From Geomonas limicola (lineage in GTDB: Bacteria > Desulfobacterota > Desulfuromonadia > Geobacterales > Geobacteraceae), in contig NZ_BLXZ01000008.1 in NCBI RefSeq assembly GCF_014193675.1, forward strand, positions 124,001-188,000: DNA of 64,000 bases, in the 5' to 3' direction. The position numbers were made by a program, and so were the translations under genes. Below the pieces are notes generated by a model. That model saw nothing but the letters and a program-made list of their open reading frames with translations. It searched no databases and was not told where the DNA came from. Below are positions 29,301 through 37,905 of the stretch, in pieces; position 1 is the stretch's first letter; each line of letters opens with the position of its first letter.

Positions 29301-29652
29301 GGATGGTGAAGATGGCAGCCTCGTCGAAGCAGCGCAGGGCGTTGGCGAGCAGGCGGCGCGCTTGGGGGCGGTCCGCGCACCGCTCGAGGAGGCCGCCCAG
29401 GAGGGGATCGTCGGTCTCATTGGACTCGAAGGCGAGCTCGGCCTCTTTCAGGCGCTTGCGGATCCTCTCGCGCAGCTCTTTGGTCGCGGCCTCGGTGAAG
29501 GTGACCACCAGGATCTCGCCGACCGGCAGGCGCAGCTCCAGCACCAGGCGCAGGAAGACCCCGGCGATGGCGAAGGTCTTGCCAGTCCCCGCGCTCGCCT
29601 CGATCAGGTTGCGTCCGGCAAGCGGGGTGCCGATGAGGTCGAAGCGGTTCAT
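26374..29652 (-). CDS. recB: RecB, exodeoxyribonuclease V beta subunit (helicase-nuclease)
   Basis: 1092 residues. It is a UvrD-type SF1A helicase with Walker A EASAGTGKTFAI at 16-27, the Walker B region LIDEFQDTDPVQF, motif III GDPKQAIYSFRG and IVTIHKSKGLEYPIVF, then LLYVALTRGKHRTYLV. The C-terminal RecB nuclease has GFMDLVIEQGGRYYILDWKS, which keeps the Asp-x-Lys catalytic pair, so the nuclease should be active. RecB is the 3'-5' motor and only nuclease of RecBCD and loads RecA after Chi. The start MNRFDLIG overlaps the recC stop by 4 bases (ATGA); the longer frame reads back into recC. Confidence 0.96.
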   Translation of the reverse strand: MNRFDLIGTPLAGRNLIEASAGTGKTFAIAGVFLRLVLELRLPVGEILVVTFTEAATKELRERIRKRLKEAELAFESNETDDPLLGGLLERCADRPQARRLLANALRCFDEAAIFTIHGFCQRTLQENPFESGSLCDTELLTDQAALLAEIAQDYWRINCYGAPLERIAAAHDAGLSPDALLSLARRLAADPFASVIPPPPQAAGDTQQWLLALRRGFFDFLSSELPGRKRLKNVRSFDDLLLDLHAAVCRPGSPLPGLIRGRYKAALIDEFQDTDPVQFAIFDSIFPVESDTPFFLIGDPKQAIYSFRGADIFAYMGAAKATEKRHTLIENWRSEPSLIRGVNTLFASHQAPFLFEEIPFSPVQAAPRQLSLLSVAGDLEPPLKLWFTPRREPGKPINKGEAGELLPEAVASEISRLLRQSDEGTLKIGERRVVPGDIAVLVRANRQAKLMQRALTRRGIPSVLCSAGNLFDSEEAGELLTVLAAVSEPGHEALLRGALATDLSGVSGSDLARLSEDERGWEEVLEEFRGYHELWAESGCLAMMLRFLERRQVRARLLAAPLGERRLTNVLHLVETIHQAQISGRLGMEGVLAWLSCRITEQPKREEHEIRLETDEAAVQIVTIHKSKGLEYPIVFLPFCWAEYSGKDPAALFHTEDGSVVLDIGSERLSEHQELARRESLAESLRLLYVALTRGKHRTYLVWGAFKDAGDSALSYLLHPEAPVSRGQVTLSDQALLAQLEQLAERSAGAIEILAMPEPDQVPYQAPPEIAAQFQVREFAGSIAREWRVASFTSLASHQHQHHGPGELPDRDEGSSKGQLEPGGEATGIFAFPKGAKAGIFLHEIFEVLDFTKREGLEELVSEQLIKHDFDAQWHGAVCSMVRSVLSAPLGKDGFALKSIGAERRLSELEFFFPLARVTSERLREAVTRCTGLSFPVDLAGLFSRLSFAPLEGMLRGFMDLVIEQGGRYYILDWKSNHLGNHPGAYNMAGMRREMEESCYALQYLLYTVALDNYLRLRVPGYDYDEHFGGIFYIFLRGVDGSGNGIFADRPPKRLIEELSEALLGSAHHGPAEFQAQPAQPVKPVQTSFEF

Positions 29653-32600
29653 GAGGCGCTCCCCCTCTTGGCCGGTGCCAGCTGCGCACCCAGGTAGGGG
29701 CCCCAGACCTGCAGGGCGAGTTCCATAAACTCGGCGTCGAGCGGGACCTGGTCCCCGAAAAAACGCCGGATGTGCCGGTCGCTCGCCTCGCCGGGAAAGA
29801 AGTCGCTGCCGTGCCACTTGCCGCGGGCGTCGGCCAGCGCCCGGGAGGCCTTCTTCGGGTCGCGGGACTTCTTGGCGTACTCAAGCGAGGTCTCCGGGAA
29901 AAAGTGCAGCGGCCGGGTCATCCCCTCTTGGTAAAGCGCGACCAGTCCGGCGAGGAGTTCAGTCGCCTCGGGGACGGGGGTGAGTTCGACCCTGGTGTCG
30001 GAGGCGAGGAAACAGGAGTGCTGCGGGTAGCCGTCGGCCCCCTGCGCGTTGAGCGCCAGGTGCTCGACCCACAGGCGCAGCTGGTCCTTGGGCTTTAACC
30101 TGGTGTAGCGGTAGATGACCAGCCGGTCGGAGCGCAGCGACCCCAGGCGACCGGTGAGCCGCACTTCACCCAGTTTCAGGTCGACGTCCAGCGGAGGGAG
30201 CGGGGTCTCCGCGGAGGCCTCGGCGACCGCGGCGGCAAACTCGACGGCGGGGCCGCTCAGGCTCTCGAAGAGCGCCTGGCCGCAGACGCCGGGTGGCAGG
30301 TCGCCCCGCCCGCAGGCGACCGCGAAGGGAAGTGCCGCCTCTTCCCCCTCCAAAAGTGCCGCGACGATCTCCTGCTCCAGCTGGTACTTCACCAGCGAGT
30401 TCAGGTTGAAGGGCTCCACCTCCTCCAGAGGTTCCATCCCCTCCTCGACCCGGATCCCCAGACGCCGGCGCAACAGCTCGCGGGCCGGGTTGCACAGGAA
30501 GTCGACGAGCCCCTTGATGGTGAGCTGCTCGCTCTCCGGCCAGGGGGTGAGTGGCTGCTCCAGAAAGGGGGGAAGGCTGCGCTGCGGGGCGCGCCGGACC
30601 AGGGCGCCGTGGAAGTTCTGCGCCGAGTAGCTGAAGAGCCCGGGGCTGCCGTCGAAGTAGCGCGGGCTGAAGGGCTGCAGCGGGTGGCGCTGGACGGCGC
30701 CGCAGGGGGTGCCGTCGGGGTGGCAGAAGGCGCGCGCCAGGTAGTCGGTAAGTTCACTCACCAGGACCGACGGGGGGAGCTCGCTGTTGTCCTTGATGCT
30801 CTGCCCGACGAAGCTTAGGTGCAGGTGGCTGCGCGCCGACAGGAGCGCCTCCAGGAACAGGTAGCGGTCTTCGTCGCGCGGCGAGCGGTCGCCGCGGCGC
30901 GGTGCCCCGGCGATCAGGTCGAAGCCGCGCGGCGGGTTGCGCCGCGGGAAGGCGCCGTCGTCCATCCCCAAAAGCGCCACGACCTTAAACGGGATGCTGC
31001 GCATCGGGAGCATGGCGCAGAAGGTGACCCCGCCGGTCAGGAAGCCAAAGCCGCGCTCGGCCTTTTCCAGGCGCCGGGAGAGCCAGTAGCGCACCACCTC
31101 GATGGAGAGCTCACCGGTAAAGGGACCGGCCTTCGCCTGCTCCCCGAGCTTCCCCACCAGTTCGGAGAGGGCCAGCAGTTCGCGCTCCCCGGTCTCGTCG
31201 ACCTTCAGGAACTCGGACAAAAGCTCGCGCAGGGTCTCCACCCACTTCTCCGTGCCGCGCGGCCGGGCGAGGGCCCGGGTCATCCCGAAGAGCTTCTCGC
31301 AGAAGGTGATGAAACGCCCCAGTACCAGCGCCTCGGCCCCTTCCAGGTCGTCGAAGGGGAGGATCCCGTTGAAGAACCGGCGCCCCTCGCCGTCTAAGGC
31401 GTAGCCCAGAAGGAGCCGGTCCAGCCCGGCCTGCCAGGAGTTCTCGCCGAAGGGGGGGAGCCCCTGCTCGCCGCGCTGGGCGGCGTCGATGCCCCAGCGG
31501 ATGTTGGCCGCGCGCAGCCACTCGCGCACGGTGTCGAGATCCTCGCCGGAGAGACCGAAACGGCGCGCCACCGGGGCCGCCTCCAGGATGTCCAGCACGG
31601 TCGAGACCCCGTAGCGCCCGCCGCAGAGCTTCAGGATGGCGAGCAGGGCCTGGGCCGCCTCCCCCTCGTTCATCAGGCTGCGGTCGGCGATGGAGTAGGG
31701 GATGCGCACCCGGTCGCTTTCGGGAGTGCCGAACACCGCGCCGATGTAGGGGGCGAAGCGCTCGATGTCCGGAGTCATCACCAGCACGTCGCGCGGCTCC
31801 AGGGCGGGATCGGATTCGAAGAGTGCCAGGAGGGTGTCGTAGAGCACCTCGACCTCGCGCAGCGGCGAGTGGCAGGAGTGCACCGCGAGGGAGAGGTCGC
31901 CTTGGGAGATCTCGCGCCTGCCGGCGCCCGGTTCCACCAGGTCGAGGATGTCGCGCTGCACCTGGTGCAACAGGGTCTCTTCCGGGATCTGCTCGAAGAG
32001 GTCGACGCGCTCGGGGTCGCCGCAGTCCTCGATGATCGCCTCGAAGAATTCGCGCCCCAGTTTCCCCCAGGAGGCGAGTAGCGGGTTGCCGGTCTCGTAC
32101 CACTCACCCTCGGCGGCGCCGCGCTCTTCCAGGCGCGCCAGCTCGCGCTCGGAGACGATGTGTCCCCAGTACTCGCGGCAGGGGTTCAGAAGAAAGAGGT
32201 TCACCTCGGCGTGCCGGGCGACCCGGGCCAGCACCTCGAGGTGGAAGGGGGGGAGCGTCGGGATCCCGATGAGCGAGATGCGTGACAAGTGCGGCGAGGG
32301 GGCGGCGTTTCCCAGCTGGCGCAGCTTGGCCAGGAGCCGGGCCCGGTGCTGGTGTGGCTCGCCGGCCACCAGGGCGCGCCAGAGCTCTCCCTGCCACCCG
32401 CCGTCGACGCCCTCTTCCCAGGCGAGCACCAGCTCGGGGCGGTACACGCTGTAGCGGTCGAAGCTGTCGGCGATGCGCTCGGCGAGCTGCAGGCGCTTCA
32501 GGCCGCCGCGGTCGTCCGCCAGGTAGCTGCAGATCTCCTCGAACCCCGGCTCGGCGGCCTTGTGCTCCAAAAGCTCCAGAAGCTTCCAGGTCAGGACGTC

Positions 32601-32876
32601 GGGGGTAAAGGCGGGGGACTCGGCGGGGGACCCCGGGATGAGGTCCGCGAAGAGGGTCTCCACGATCTTGGTGGGGAAGGGGAACTCGCAGTTCGCCCAG
32701 ACCCCGACCCGGCGCGCCAGTTCCATGGAAAGCCAGCGCTGCATCCCCTTGCTCTGCACCACGACGATCTCTTTGGTAAACGGCGTCGCCGGGGCCGGGC
32801 GCGGTTGGCGCACCACCCCCTCGAGCTGGTCCACCAAGAGCTCCATCCTGTTGCTGGTGTATATCTTCAGAGGCAT
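29649..32876 (-). CDS. recC: RecC, exodeoxyribonuclease V gamma subunit
   Basis: 1075 residues, close to the usual RecC length. It starts MPLKIYTSNRMELLVDQL and has the family stretches VVQSKGMQRWLSMELA, FPFPTKIVET, DVLVMTPDIERFAPYIGAVFG, IPYSIADRS and the C-terminal FRSIP-type block MLPMRSIPFKVVALLGMDDGAFPR. RecC is a helicase-like protein without ATPase activity that splits the duplex and recognises Chi. It is the first gene of the recCB unit, with an ATGA overlap to recB. Confidence 0.95.
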   Translation of the reverse strand: MPLKIYTSNRMELLVDQLEGVVRQPRPAPATPFTKEIVVVQSKGMQRWLSMELARRVGVWANCEFPFPTKIVETLFADLIPGSPAESPAFTPDVLTWKLLELLEHKAAEPGFEEICSYLADDRGGLKRLQLAERIADSFDRYSVYRPELVLAWEEGVDGGWQGELWRALVAGEPHQHRARLLAKLRQLGNAAPSPHLSRISLIGIPTLPPFHLEVLARVARHAEVNLFLLNPCREYWGHIVSERELARLEERGAAEGEWYETGNPLLASWGKLGREFFEAIIEDCGDPERVDLFEQIPEETLLHQVQRDILDLVEPGAGRREISQGDLSLAVHSCHSPLREVEVLYDTLLALFESDPALEPRDVLVMTPDIERFAPYIGAVFGTPESDRVRIPYSIADRSLMNEGEAAQALLAILKLCGGRYGVSTVLDILEAAPVARRFGLSGEDLDTVREWLRAANIRWGIDAAQRGEQGLPPFGENSWQAGLDRLLLGYALDGEGRRFFNGILPFDDLEGAEALVLGRFITFCEKLFGMTRALARPRGTEKWVETLRELLSEFLKVDETGERELLALSELVGKLGEQAKAGPFTGELSIEVVRYWLSRRLEKAERGFGFLTGGVTFCAMLPMRSIPFKVVALLGMDDGAFPRRNPPRGFDLIAGAPRRGDRSPRDEDRYLFLEALLSARSHLHLSFVGQSIKDNSELPPSVLVSELTDYLARAFCHPDGTPCGAVQRHPLQPFSPRYFDGSPGLFSYSAQNFHGALVRRAPQRSLPPFLEQPLTPWPESEQLTIKGLVDFLCNPARELLRRRLGIRVEEGMEPLEEVEPFNLNSLVKYQLEQEIVAALLEGEEAALPFAVACGRGDLPPGVCGQALFESLSGPAVEFAAAVAEASAETPLPPLDVDLKLGEVRLTGRLGSLRSDRLVIYRYTRLKPKDQLRLWVEHLALNAQGADGYPQHSCFLASDTRVELTPVPEATELLAGLVALYQEGMTRPLHFFPETSLEYAKKSRDPKKASRALADARGKWHGSDFFPGEASDRHIRRFFGDQVPLDAEFMELALQVWGPYLGAQLAPAKRGSAS

Positions 32877-34204: not shown

Positions 34205-35245
34205 TTGAAACTCCCCTGGCAGCTTGCTGCGACCTCCCTTTACCTCGTCGTTCTCGCCCTGATCACCCTCCTCAACTGGACCGGCGCCGACCGCTGGTGG
34301 TTCGGCGCCCTCAACCTCTACCTCCCCCAGGCCATGTGGGCGCTGCCCGGCCTGCTGCTCACCGTGCTGGCTTGGCGTGTGGAACGGCTCTGGGCGTTGC
34401 TGCCGCTCTGCTGCGTGCTCTGGGTGCTGGGGCCGCTCATGGGACTGCGCTGGTCGGCGCCGGCGGCCCAGGCCGCCCCGAACGCGGCTACTTTGCGGCT
34501 CATGACCTGGAACATCAAGTACGGCAGTTATCCGCTCGAGCCGCTTCTGGCGGAACTGGAGCGCAGCCGGCCCGACGTGGTCCTTTTCCAGGATGCCATC
34601 GGTGCACTCACCGGCCCTCTGGCGGGATACTTCCGGGACTGGCAGGTCTACTCCCACGGCCAGTTCGTCATCGCGAGCCGCTATCCCCTCTCGGACCTGG
34701 AGGTGCGCGAGCTGCCGCGGGCCGGAGAGGGGCAGGAGTACCTGCACTGCCGGCTGCACCTGGGGGGAAGCACGGTATCCCTGTACAACGTCCACTTCAA
34801 GACGCCGCGGCGCAGTCTGAACGAGTTTCGCACCGCCAGAAAGCGTCCCTGGTACCTCCCCCTGGCGATCGAAGCCTTGAGCCACAATGCCGAGACTCGG
34901 CAGCTGCAGGCAGCCGCGGTGGCCCGGGCCCTGAGCCGCGAGGCCGGGCCGGTTTTGGTGGCCGGCGACTTCAACGCTCCGGTTACCACGCGGGTGGTGG
35001 GGATGCTGGCCGAGCAGGGGCTGAAAGACGCCTTCGACGAGCGCGGTCGGGGCTACGGCTTCAGCTACGGCCAACTGCTCCTCAAGCACCGTCTCCCCTG
35101 GCTCAGGCTCTCCTTCATGCGTATCGACCACGTGATGTCGAGCCGCGGGTTCGTCACGCTGCGCTGCTGGACGGGGACCGGGATCGCCTCGGACCACCGG
35201 CCGGTACTGGCCGATCTGGCGCTGCAGCCTGCCCCTTCCCGGTAA
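34205..35245 (+). CDS. Membrane-anchored endonuclease/exonuclease/phosphatase-family protein
   Basis: 346 residues starting at a TTG with GGAGAG upstream. About three hydrophobic helices occupy residues 8-90. The EEP domain follows, with MTWNIKYGS, PDVVLFQDA, VYSHGQFVIASRYPLSD, VSLYNVHFKTPRR, VLVAGDFNAP and the final IASDHRPVLADL. The catalytic Asn/Asp (GDFNAP) and Asp-His (SDHRPV) pairs are present; the usual Glu in the second motif is Gln-Asp (FQDA), which is a small departure. The family splits phosphodiesters in DNA, lipids or nucleotides; with this topology a lipid or envelope substrate is more likely. It follows the CE4-like gene. Confidence 0.8.
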   Translation: MKLPWQLAATSLYLVVLALITLLNWTGADRWWFGALNLYLPQAMWALPGLLLTVLAWRVERLWALLPLCCVLWVLGPLMGLRWSAPAAQAAPNAATLRLMTWNIKYGSYPLEPLLAELERSRPDVVLFQDAIGALTGPLAGYFRDWQVYSHGQFVIASRYPLSDLEVRELPRAGEGQEYLHCRLHLGGSTVSLYNVHFKTPRRSLNEFRTARKRPWYLPLAIEALSHNAETRQLQAAAVARALSREAGPVLVAGDFNAPVTTRVVGMLAEQGLKDAFDERGRGYGFSYGQLLLKHRLPWLRLSFMRIDHVMSSRGFVTLRCWTGTGIASDHRPVLADLALQPAPSR

Positions 35246-35417
35246 CCCACCGGGGTGACCCCCTTGCATTGTCGGAGCCGGCATGGTAGTTTGCCTCTTT
35301 TACCAGCTTCGGTAGTCCGGATCCCGCCCGTTCCCCCCCGCATTTACCTGCACCGGATATCTCAAGGGGTGGCTGACTGCCCGTTTGGCGCAGTCGCCCA
35401 CGAATCGGAGTAGCAGC

Positions 35418-36638
35418 ATGTTCATCCTTACCCTCAACTGCCGGAGATATTCCGTGCAGTACCAGCTTTTCGACTGGCGGCACCTGGTCTCCCTGGCGAC
35501 CGGAAGCGTGGAACGCATCGTGGTCGGCGACTCCTTCATCACCCACGAGGTCCCGGGGCGGCTGCCCGAGCACCGTGAGCGGGATTGCCCGGACCACCTT
35601 AGCGCACTGAAGCTCGTCCTGGACACCCTGACCGACCCCAAGGTCGGCGTCCTTACCAGCGTCGCCAAGATCAAGGGGATCGGGCACCGCGTGGTGCACG
35701 GCGGTGAGAAGTTCACCCAGTCCGTGCTCATCGATCAAGAGGTGGTTGAGACCATCGAGGAGATGGCGAAGCTCGCCCCGCTGCACAACACGCCGAACTT
35801 GGCCGGGATCCGCGCCGCACAGGAGCTCTTGTCGGACGTCCCCCAGGTAGCCATCTTCGATACCGCCTTCCACCAGACCATGCCCGAAGAGGCCTACCTC
35901 TACCCGCTTCCCTACGAGTGGTACGAGAAACACGGCATCAGGCGCTACGGCTTTCACGGCCAGTCCCACCTCTACGCGGCGCGCCGGGGTGCGGCGCTCG
36001 CCGGGGTGGAGCAGGACCGGGCCAACCTGGTCACGATTCACACCGGTGACGGCGTCTCCCTGTGTGCCATCCGCAATGGCAAGTCGGTGGATACCAGCAT
36101 GGGGCTCACCCCACTCGAGGGGGTCATGATGGGGACCCGCTGCGGCGATATCGATCCCGGCATCATCCCCTTCATGATGAACCAGGCCGGGGTCTCGGCA
36201 CCCGAGATCGATCTCTTCATGAACCAGAAAAGCGGGGTTGCGGGGATCGTGGGGCGGCGGGTGAACCGGCGCATCGTGATGAACGAGGCCAACGATGGGG
36301 ACGAGCGCTGCCGTCTGGCACTCGAGATGGAGTCCTACCGGCTGCGCAAGTACCTGGGTGCCTACATCGCGGTGACCGGCAAGCCGGACGCCATCGTGTT
36401 CACCTACGGTGACGGCTGGGCCGACTGGCCGGTGCGCGGCCTGGCGCTGGCCGGGATGGAGCAGTTCGGGATCAAGCTGGACACCGAGCGCGACCTCATG
36501 GCGCTCATGGGTGGGCAGGAGATGCTGGTCAGCGCGGACGACTCGCAGGTGAAGGTGTTTGTGCTCCCGACCGGCGAGGACATGGTGCTCAACGAGGACG
36601 TCGCGACGATCCTCGGCTGGAGGGATCTGCCGGCGTAA
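35418..36638 (+). CDS. Acetate kinase paralogue with altered active-site loops
   Basis: 406 residues that align without gaps to acetate kinase numbering. Conserved positions are Asn7, Arg91 (GHRVVHGGE), His123, Asp148 (IFDTAFHQTMP), His180 (YGFHGQSH), His208 and Arg241 (MMGTRCGDIDPG). Key loops differ. The phosphate loop NxGSSSLK is NCRRYSVQ, the adenine/phosphate loop HLGNG is HTGDG (Asn211 to Asp), and TAGIGEN is TYGDGWA. Typical acetate kinases transfer phosphate between ATP and acetate. These changes make normal activity doubtful and suggest another substrate, phosphodonor (for example PPi) or a regulatory role. No pta gene is nearby. The start is the ATG at 35418. Confidence 0.88.
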   Translation: MFILTLNCRRYSVQYQLFDWRHLVSLATGSVERIVVGDSFITHEVPGRLPEHRERDCPDHLSALKLVLDTLTDPKVGVLTSVAKIKGIGHRVVHGGEKFTQSVLIDQEVVETIEEMAKLAPLHNTPNLAGIRAAQELLSDVPQVAIFDTAFHQTMPEEAYLYPLPYEWYEKHGIRRYGFHGQSHLYAARRGAALAGVEQDRANLVTIHTGDGVSLCAIRNGKSVDTSMGLTPLEGVMMGTRCGDIDPGIIPFMMNQAGVSAPEIDLFMNQKSGVAGIVGRRVNRRIVMNEANDGDERCRLALEMESYRLRKYLGAYIAVTGKPDAIVFTYGDGWADWPVRGLALAGMEQFGIKLDTERDLMALMGGQEMLVSADDSQVKVFVLPTGEDMVLNEDVATILGWRDLPA

Positions 36639-36711
36639 AGGGCTGGCTGCCGGCAACGCGGAGTTCCTCCCTCCCAAAGGGCGAGGGGATGTAGTTTGAA
36701 GACGGTCATGG

Positions 36712-36747
36712 AAAAGGGGCACCCCCGGTTGAGGGTGCCCCTTTTTT
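36712..36747. terminator. Bidirectional intrinsic terminator between convergent genes
   Basis: AAAAGGGGCACCC and its complement around an 8- to 10-nt loop, followed by six T on the plus strand and preceded by AAAA, so it can end both the acetate-kinase-like and metX transcripts. Confidence 0.9.
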
Positions 36748-36801
36748 GCGTGGTGCTCCTGTGGTGGAGATGAGGTTTGTCCGGTCGCGCCGGTCTCCCT
36801 C

Positions 36802-37905
36802 CTAGAACTTCACCCTGGCGAAGAAGTCCTGCACCATCGGGGTGAAGGTCTCGTGCTCCAGGAGGAAGGCGTCGTGACCGTAGGCTGAGGTGATCAGGTG
36901 GTACTCCACCGGCTTGCCGAGCTTCTCGAGTGTCACGACCATCTCCTCGGTCTGGGCCGGAGGGTAGAGCCAGTCCGAGGTAAAGGCGAAAAACTGGATC
37001 GGGGCGCTGACCGGGGCGAAAGCCTCCTCCATCGATTCGCAGCCGCTGGCGACGTCGTAGAGGTCGAGGGCCTTGGCCAGGTACAGGAAGGAGTTGGCGT
37101 CGAAGCGGTCCACGAAGTTGTAGCCGTTGTAGGTGAGGTAGCGCTCCACCTCGAACTGGCCGAAGAAGTCGAACTGGCCGTCGCGGGCCGAGAAGCGTCG
37201 GTCGAACTTGGCCGTCATGGACTCGTCGGAGAGGAAGGTGATGTGCCCGATGCCGCGGGCCAGGGCGAGACCGTCCTTGGGGTTCTTGCGGTACTCCCCT
37301 TTTTTCCAGTTCGGGTCGTTGAAGATCGCCCAGCGGGCCACGGCGTTGAGCGAGATGGCCTGCGCCGAGGGGCGCGGCGTGCTGGCAAGCACCACGGCCG
37401 AGGCGACACGCTCGGGGAACTGGGTCGCCCACTCGAGCGCCTGCATCCCCCCCATGCTGCCCCCAAGGACGCAGAAGAGCCGCTCGATGCCGAGCCGGTC
37501 CATGAGCAGGGCCTGGGCGCGCACCATGTCGCGCACCGTGATGACCGGGAAGGAGAGGTTGTAGCGCTTGCCGGTCTTGGGGTTTGTCGAGGTGGGGCCG
37601 GTGGAGCCGAAACAGGAGCCGATCACGTTGGAGCAGATGACGAAGAAGCGATCGGTATCCAGAAGGCGCCCTGGGCCGACGATCTCGTCCCACCAGCCGG
37701 CGCGCTTTTCCTCCGGCGAGTAGCGGCCGGCCAGGTGGGCGCTGCCGGTCCAGGCGTGGGTTACCAGGATGGCGTTGGAACGCTCCTCGTTGAGCGTCCC
37801 GTAAGTCTCGTAGGCGATCTCGATCGGCCCGAGGATGCGGCCGCTTTCCAGGCGCAGTTCGGTATCAAAACGTACCAGCTGTTCGGTTACTAAGCCGTAG
37901 GACAT
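36802..37905 (-). CDS. metX: Homoserine O-acetyltransferase
   Basis: 367 residues of the MetX alpha/beta-hydrolase family. It has the start [12 protein letters not shown], the oxyanion region [14 protein letters not shown], the nucleophile elbow [13 protein letters not shown], the substrate Arg region [12 protein letters not shown], and the late acid and His in [11 protein letters not shown] and YGHDAFLLE. It transfers acetyl from acetyl-CoA to homoserine, the first committed step of direct-sulfhydrylation methionine synthesis. The leader holds a complete SAM-I riboswitch and terminator, which fits methionine repression and supports this annotation over the serine acyltransferase alternative. 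No metW follows. Confidence 0.95.

Follow-up and report, generated by a model that had tools for sequence, protein, structure and literature searches.

AckA-2, an ancient acetate kinase paralogue with a changed nucleotide site, is kept beside orthodox AckA by Geobacter-like bacteria

Geobacter-like bacteria keep, beside orthodox acetate kinase (AckA), an ancient paralogue of that enzyme, here called AckA-2, which despite its kinase label in databases probably acts as a regulator or catalyses a changed reaction. Carbon and electrons enter Geobacter-type metal respirers by way of acetate activation; acetyl phosphate, for its part, is able to phosphorylate response regulators. A protein that curated profiles class as a kinase while its nucleotide site is dismantled would inflate the count of acetate kinase isozymes in annotation, models and proteomes. 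The gene we analysed, ackA-2 of Geomonas limicola, lies in a stretch of 64,000 nucleotides (contig NZ_BLXZ01000008.1, positions 124,001 to 188,000), referred to as the window; its features are collected in Table 1.

Table 1. Features of ackA-2 and its 3' flank, in window positions; fractions are rows of the AckA-2 alignment unless stated otherwise.
Feature	Position	Strand	Basis
ackA-2, acetate-kinase-fold paralogue, 406 aa	35418..36638	+	ORF, profile match, alignment, model
GGAG, Shine-Dalgarno-like, 7 nt 5' of the ATG	35407..35410	+	read from sequence
PHOSPHATE1 loop, residues 8-14, CRRYSVQ (own orthodox AckA, CGSSSVK)	35439..35459	+	
Arg91 codon, catalytic residue, kept; 59/59	35688..35690	+	alignment
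His123 codon, kept; 51/59	35784..35786	+	alignment
Asp148 codon (metal/catalysis), kept; 58/59	35859..35861	+	alignment
His180 codon, kept; 59/59	35955..35957	+	alignment
Asp211 codon; Asn in orthodox AckA and in 16/18 same-genus copies	36048..36050	+	alignment
Arg241 codon, kept; 58/59	36138..36140	+	alignment
ADENOSINE loop, residues 329-335, TYGDGWA (own orthodox AckA, TAGVGEM)	36402..36422	+	
Glu387 codon, Glu384 in M. thermophila numbering, kept; 57/59	36576..36578	+	
Perfect 13-bp hairpin with A and T tracts, in the ackA-2/metX gap	36712..36745	.	read from sequence

The reading frame is intact, running from the ATG at 35418, a start that the family alignment backs, to a stop at 36636-36638. 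Its product belongs to the AckA family, with 438 bits against the TIGR00016 ackA model (cut-off 293) and 435 bits against PF00871 (cut-off 22). An AF2 model built with a 67-row alignment (a single-sequence fold, pLDDT 33, was discarded) has the AckA fold at a mean pLDDT of 92.4, with confidence dropping at the ADENOSINE loop (mean 67 over residues 331-340). The best match among solved structures was T. maritima AckA (2iir; Z 55.8, rmsd 1.3 over 398 residues). The model also matched the PPi-dependent AckA of Entamoeba histolytica (4h0o; Z 44.6, rmsd 2.3 over 379 residues) and the ROK repressor Mlc, which has the ASKHA fold (1z6r; Z 13.1).

Residue numbers follow M. thermophila AckA (chain 1tuu), to which the protein was aligned. 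In this numbering, residues 7-14 of the protein read NCRRYSVQ, 208-213 HTGDGV, 239-244 GTRCGD and 329-340 TYGDGWADWPVR. Orthodox AckA (EC 2.7.2.1; 2iir, 1tuu/1tuy) shares with it the fold and the whole phosphoryl-transfer set of a functional kinase (Arg91, His123, Asp148, His180, Arg241 and the Glu384 equivalent), and Val93, Leu122, Phe179 and Pro232 are kept as well; the two differ in PHOSPHATE1, ADENOSINE and LOOP4 residues, which are changed in AckA-2. The PHOSPHATE1 motif N-x-G-S-S-[ST]-x-K is absent, and of the nucleotide contacts Asn211, Asp283, Arg285, Gly331 and Ile/Val332, which here are Asp, Asn, Arg, Gly and Asp, two of five are kept. A first-pass annotation of this DNA had pointed to the kept Arg91, His180 and Arg241 and to CRRYSVQ at residues 8-14, and the alignment agrees on both. 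It had also singled out Asp for Asn211, which is correct for this gene but is not a clade trait, being limited to this genome and one other of the genus (G015). Its reading of TYGDGWA against TAGIGEN at 329-335 was right that the loop is changed, but Gly331 is kept and the organism's own orthodox AckA reads GVGEM rather than GIGEN, so that Asn335 is an unfair comparison; the telling changes are A330Y, V/I332D and E334W. This protein may still bind ATP, since Asn7, Ser12, Gly212, Gly239, Gly331 and Arg285 remain and Asn211 is kept by most same-genus copies (Table 1).

AckA-2 is not the sole acetate kinase of the organism. An orthodox ackA with an adjoining, convergent pta, which the first-pass annotation had proposed looking for, is on contig C1 of the same genome; it encodes 421 aa with NCGSSSVK, HIGNGV and TAGVGEM at the corresponding loops, and its product is 58.6% identical to AckA-2. 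The genome further holds a gene with a PF13336 acetyl-CoA hydrolase/transferase domain on C4, with a weak second match on C2, and a butyrate kinase on C10. Butyrate kinase is likewise an ASKHA acyl kinase but differs from AckA-2, with only 30% identity over AckA-2 residues 175-366.

We typed AckA-2 by its active site in a search of relatives and found it in 38 of 58 genomes, this one included, and in 18 of 19 genomes of the same genus. Each of the 38 has, in addition, a match with a score typical of orthodox AckA. It was not found in the other 20 genomes of that search, one of them of the same genus; among the matches listed, AckA-2 profile scores did not part AckA-2 from AckA. A search of 277 genomes of the class with a DNA motif for ILTLNC[W/R], which gives a lower bound, extended AckA-2 to further genera and, beyond the order, to three families (f10, f20 and f25). 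Translation confirmed 20 of the loci, two of which (G236 and G255) came from AckA-2 profile matches and not from the motif; motif matches in G111, G237, contig C368 of G164, C78 of G020 and C7 of G036 were outside the set examined. Among the best-scoring 80 acetate kinase loci of named genomes, 76 carry the PHOSPHATE1 motif, one is clipped at its start, and the three without the motif are AckA-2, from Geotalea sp. SG265, Pelotalea chapellei and a Desulfuromonadaceae bin.

Phylogeny, another check that had been proposed, set the AckA-2 branch apart from orthodox AckA. In a tree of 84 rows, drawn with its root inside AckA-2 and read as unrooted, 43 AckA-2 rows were split from 41 orthodox and outgroup rows at 100/98. 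This tree left out 21 rows (long branches, near duplicates, L064_G044b, L063_G020d, L085, L089 and L090). An earlier 69-row tree, which flags a meeting of long branches, held 39 AckA-2 rows together at 99/99, and three rows absent from the larger tree (G019b, G023b and G055b) fall inside AckA-2 there. The simplest reading is a single duplication no later than the base of the part of the class that was sampled. Copy number varies in places: Pelotalea chapellei has, besides an orthodox ackA, two diverged AckA-2 copies about 24 kb apart on one contig (L054, G054c; L061, G054b), and two orthodox-type acetate kinases each occur in G034 (L048, G034b; L045, G034a) and G023 (L039, L041).

We compared the retention of functional sites, chosen with guidance from published lists, in 59 AckA-2 rows, which are related and hence not independent samples, with a background of 129 positions, each conserved to 95% or more across 31 orthodox AckAs from the group and 10 outgroups. 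Background positions were kept on average in 81% of cases. The five PHOSPHATE1 positions were 29% kept (4 of 10,000 random draws as low; P = 0.0004) and the nine nucleotide positions 58% kept (91 of 10,000 draws; P = 0.009). Phosphoryl and metal positions were 95% kept, above background at P = 0.07 only, and the five sites of the acetate pocket were no better kept than background (88% v 81%, P = 0.37). The claim that the acyl-phosphate side is kept while the nucleotide side has changed thus stands for the phosphoryl and metal residues and for the nucleotide loops, in nearly all of the clade, but not for the acetate pocket. The test left out two distant orthodox-type rows (L064_G044b and L063_G020d) and three on the same contigs as G033, G164 and G054 (L085, L089 and L090), and it counted L048_G034b as orthodox. 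With its literature-guided lists and larger number of rows it supersedes an earlier version on author-chosen lists, in which 11 acyl-side sites were 95% kept (P = 0.024).

Within PHOSPHATE1, Gly9 is kept in none of the 59 rows, Ser10 in 26, Ser11 in 2, Ser12 in 48 and Lys14 in 9. Elsewhere the counts are 32 for Gly210, 21 for Asn211, 29 for Gly239, 12 for Asp283, 41 for Arg285, 9 for Val332 and 12 for Glu334. Asn7 is kept in 53 rows and Phe179 and Pro232 in all 59; Val93 is kept in 38 (Ala in 21) and Leu122 in 45 (changed in 14), and Tyr replaces His123 in seven. Charged residues have been gained at three positions (Asp/Glu210 in 26/59, Arg/Lys211 in 27/59, Asp/Glu239 in 29/59), and in many lineages these side chains look, on the alignment, as if they were plugging the phosphate site. 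The rebuild varies by lineage: 17 of 18 same-genus copies carry Tyr330, Asp/Glu332 and Trp334 in the adenosine loop (the other, G018, reads TYTAEW), whereas many others combine Asp/Glu210, Arg/Lys211 and Asp/Glu239. The protein studied here bears the marks of the clade, namely Thr5 (58/59), the lost Gly9, Gly248 (58/59) and a changed Lys270 (kept in 1/59).

It had been proposed that these loops point to a different phosphodonor. A switch to PPi/Pi or some other phosphoryl donor or acceptor would fit the loss of adenosine-loop residues and has a precedent in the PPi-dependent AckA of Entamoeba, described in passages of PMC5517563 as having a lengthened PHOSPHATE2 loop and Gln for Gly331. The E. 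histolytica enzyme shares the AckA fold and a changed adenosine loop with AckA-2, but AckA-2 has neither of its two distinguishing features. Residues 208-213 align without an insertion, whereas the PPi type has a lengthened loop with a second Gly, and Gly331, replaced by Gln in Entamoeba and by Asp in putative bacterial relatives, is kept here and in 51 of 59 AckA-2 rows. The proposal is not borne out by these features, and we regard PPi/Pi use as very improbable.

A second alternative is an acyl phosphatase, in which water would replace ADP, acetyl (or propionyl) phosphate would be hydrolysed and the acetyl phosphate level lowered. The kept Arg91, His180, Arg241, Asp148 and Glu384 equivalent beside a rebuilt ADP site are what such an enzyme might show, and new acidic residues are often found at 210, 239 or 332. 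However, these acidic residues take no one fixed position across the clade, and two full-length members have lost some catalytic residues: G023b (L051, 8001-9197) has Arg241Gly, His123Leu and Asp148Glu, and G019b (L062, 7998-9197) has His208Ala and Glu384Leu. Such losses are expected if catalysis is dispensable, and we consider a phosphatase distinctly unlikely.

AckA-2 might instead still be an ATP- or NTP-dependent short-chain acyl kinase that tolerates its altered loops and differs from AckA in kinetics or substrate, as a propionate kinase or a low-flux isozyme would. The protein passes the ackA subfamily cut-off, its best equivalog score is to the propionate kinase model (348 bits, under that model's cut-off of 580), and Asn7, Ser12, Gly331, Gly239 and Arg285 are kept. 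Passages of the literature offer parallels: AckA isozymes of L. lactis differ in kinetics (PMC3956926), and single changes at Asn211, Gly239 or Gly331 of M. thermophila AckA cut activity 6- to 200-fold without abolishing it (PMC4390882). In the parts of the literature examined, no published AckA variant combining the AckA-2 changes was found. Set against a kinase are the losses of Gly9, Ser11, Lys14 and Glu334, which orthodox AckA retains, in 59, 57, 50 and 47 of 59 AckA-2 rows, and the charged residues that about half of the rows carry at 210, 211 or 239.

Earlier work on Geobacter bears on the same question. According to passages of a 2009 paper, Gmet_0149/GSU3448 diverged before the last common ancestor of the Geobacteraceae, is nearer to the propionate kinase of E. 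coli than to its acetate kinase, and was flagged as uncharacterised (PMC2700814). The nearness to propionate kinase would suit an acyl kinase; however, the same passages state that GSU3448 gives too little acetate kinase activity for growth, with no growth rescue by it reported. They also name acetyl phosphate as a possible global signal (PMC2700814). Passages of a 2026 paper group GSU3448, ackA and pta in one route that is downregulated by comparison with growth on acetate alone, a hint that GSU3448 is expressed (PMC13274346). G. sulfurreducens was outside the named sequences we compared, and we infer that GSU3448 is an AckA-2 orthologue: like AckA-2, GSU3448/Gmet_0149 is a second acetate-kinase homologue alongside an orthodox ackA, and the GSU3448 peptide GIRLDRERN, implied by a passage of PMC4121341, is present in two AckA-2 rows (G026c and G020c). 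The passages on GSU3448, unlike the present analysis, do not treat its active site, no active-site discussion of the paralogue was found among the literature passages searched, and in passages of further Geobacter papers mention is limited to the orthodox enzyme or to acetate kinase at large. New here relative to the 2009 flag are the active-site pattern, the class-wide spread, the selection and the gene context. Taking both sides together, we judge an acyl kinase unlikely.

AckA-2 could also be a functionless duplicate in decay. It evolves faster than AckA, with 51-67% identity between genomes whose AckA share 80-90% (five comparisons), and it was not found in the 20 genomes noted above. However, dN/dS was 0.045-0.097 in eight close same-genus pairs and 0.070-0.217 in four wider pairs, against 0.015-0.075 in six orthodox AckA pairs, all of them chosen and not exhaustive. 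The frames are full-length in the rows examined, and nearly all genomes of the genus keep the gene. Thus, AckA-2 is functional yet under weaker constraint than AckA, and this purifying selection leaves decay as an extremely improbable explanation.

The reading we favour, though tentatively and at somewhat less than even confidence, is that AckA-2 is a non-kinase, acetyl-phosphate- or acetate-binding regulatory paralogue that tunes acetate activation, a role suggested by its pattern of kept and lost sites. It would no longer be an efficient ATP:acetate phosphotransferase. Acetyl phosphate or acetate would occupy the half of the cleft that is kept, no nucleotide being used, and the bound state might be relayed either through mixed dimers with AckA or by AckA-2 acting as an acetyl phosphate sensor. 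The output would tune acetate activation through AckA-Pta v succinyl-CoA:acetate CoA-transferase. A wider proposal, conceivable but doubtful, is that an AckA fold lost its dependence on nucleotide no later than the base of the sampled Desulfuromonadia and became a sensor of acetyl phosphate, a regulatory subunit or an acetyl-phosphate hydrolase. In acetate-respiring bacteria it would then set how much acetyl phosphate is present and which route is taken, AckA-Pta or CoA-transferase. ROK repressors, which have the ASKHA fold, no longer use ATP and by analogy may serve as a precedent for a change from kinase to regulator. If correct, AckA-2 would be a clean case of an acyl kinase turned non-kinase, and, should it prove to sense or remove acetyl phosphate, it would offer a ready handle on acetyl-phosphate control.

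Dimer-pocket residues named in passages of PMC3475010, and placed on AckA-2 by motif, are kept: Arg176, Arg308 and Lys311 in 59/59 rows, Asp225 in 58/59, Met228 in 53/59 and Tyr312 in 52/59. Judged from these residues, a kept dimer interface would be equally compatible with a homodimer.

We surveyed gene neighbourhoods at 49 distinct AckA-2 loci with flanks (29 + 20); two more loci of the second set were set aside, one being orthodox and the other sharing its contig with G164. Neighbours were taken by a longest-ORF rule and in part named by cluster similarity, and some flanks are short, so that absences are weak. No neighbour was common to all 49 loci. Families f3 and f4 account for 16 of these loci. 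In eight of the 16 (G039, G043, G051, G052, G054b, G055, G230 and G255) a MarR_2 regulator lies within two genes of ackA-2, and in four (G043, G051, G054b and G230; in G230 on the opposite, divergent strand) a PF13336 acetyl-CoA hydrolase/transferase gene does. The positions of the MarR_2 and PF13336 profile matches confirm all of these neighbours. The G043 transferase passes the cut-off for ScpC, succinyl-CoA:acetate CoA-transferase (565 v 500 bits). Matches to MarR_2 and PF13336 are few in the eight genomes (8-17 and 1-3 per genome), so the pairing with ackA-2 is unlikely to be chance; it may be a single inherited arrangement. No link to a CoA-transferase or MarR gene was seen at the 33 loci outside f3 and f4, the present one included. 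A dicarboxylate symporter gene is immediately upstream of ackA-2 in G052 and G255, and genes of one cluster lie downstream in G051, where the member is a 4HBT thioesterase, and G054b. In family f20 (L230 of G165 and L231 of G166), an unassigned convergent gene of 457 aa has its end 3 nt away from that of ackA-2.

At the locus itself, ackA-2 is followed by a convergent metX, and the hairpin between them (Table 1) is a probable two-way terminator. No sigma-70-like promoter was found in window positions 34900-36900. Same-strand genes upstream include one with an Exo_endo_phos domain and one that is without a family match and resembles a polysaccharide deacetylase by eye. Three genes 5' of ackA-2 is recC, encoding exodeoxyribonuclease V gamma (window positions 29649-32876; 961 bits to TIGR01450). 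Together, recC and metX flank ackA-2 in seven of the nine same-genus loci examined, and also in G024.
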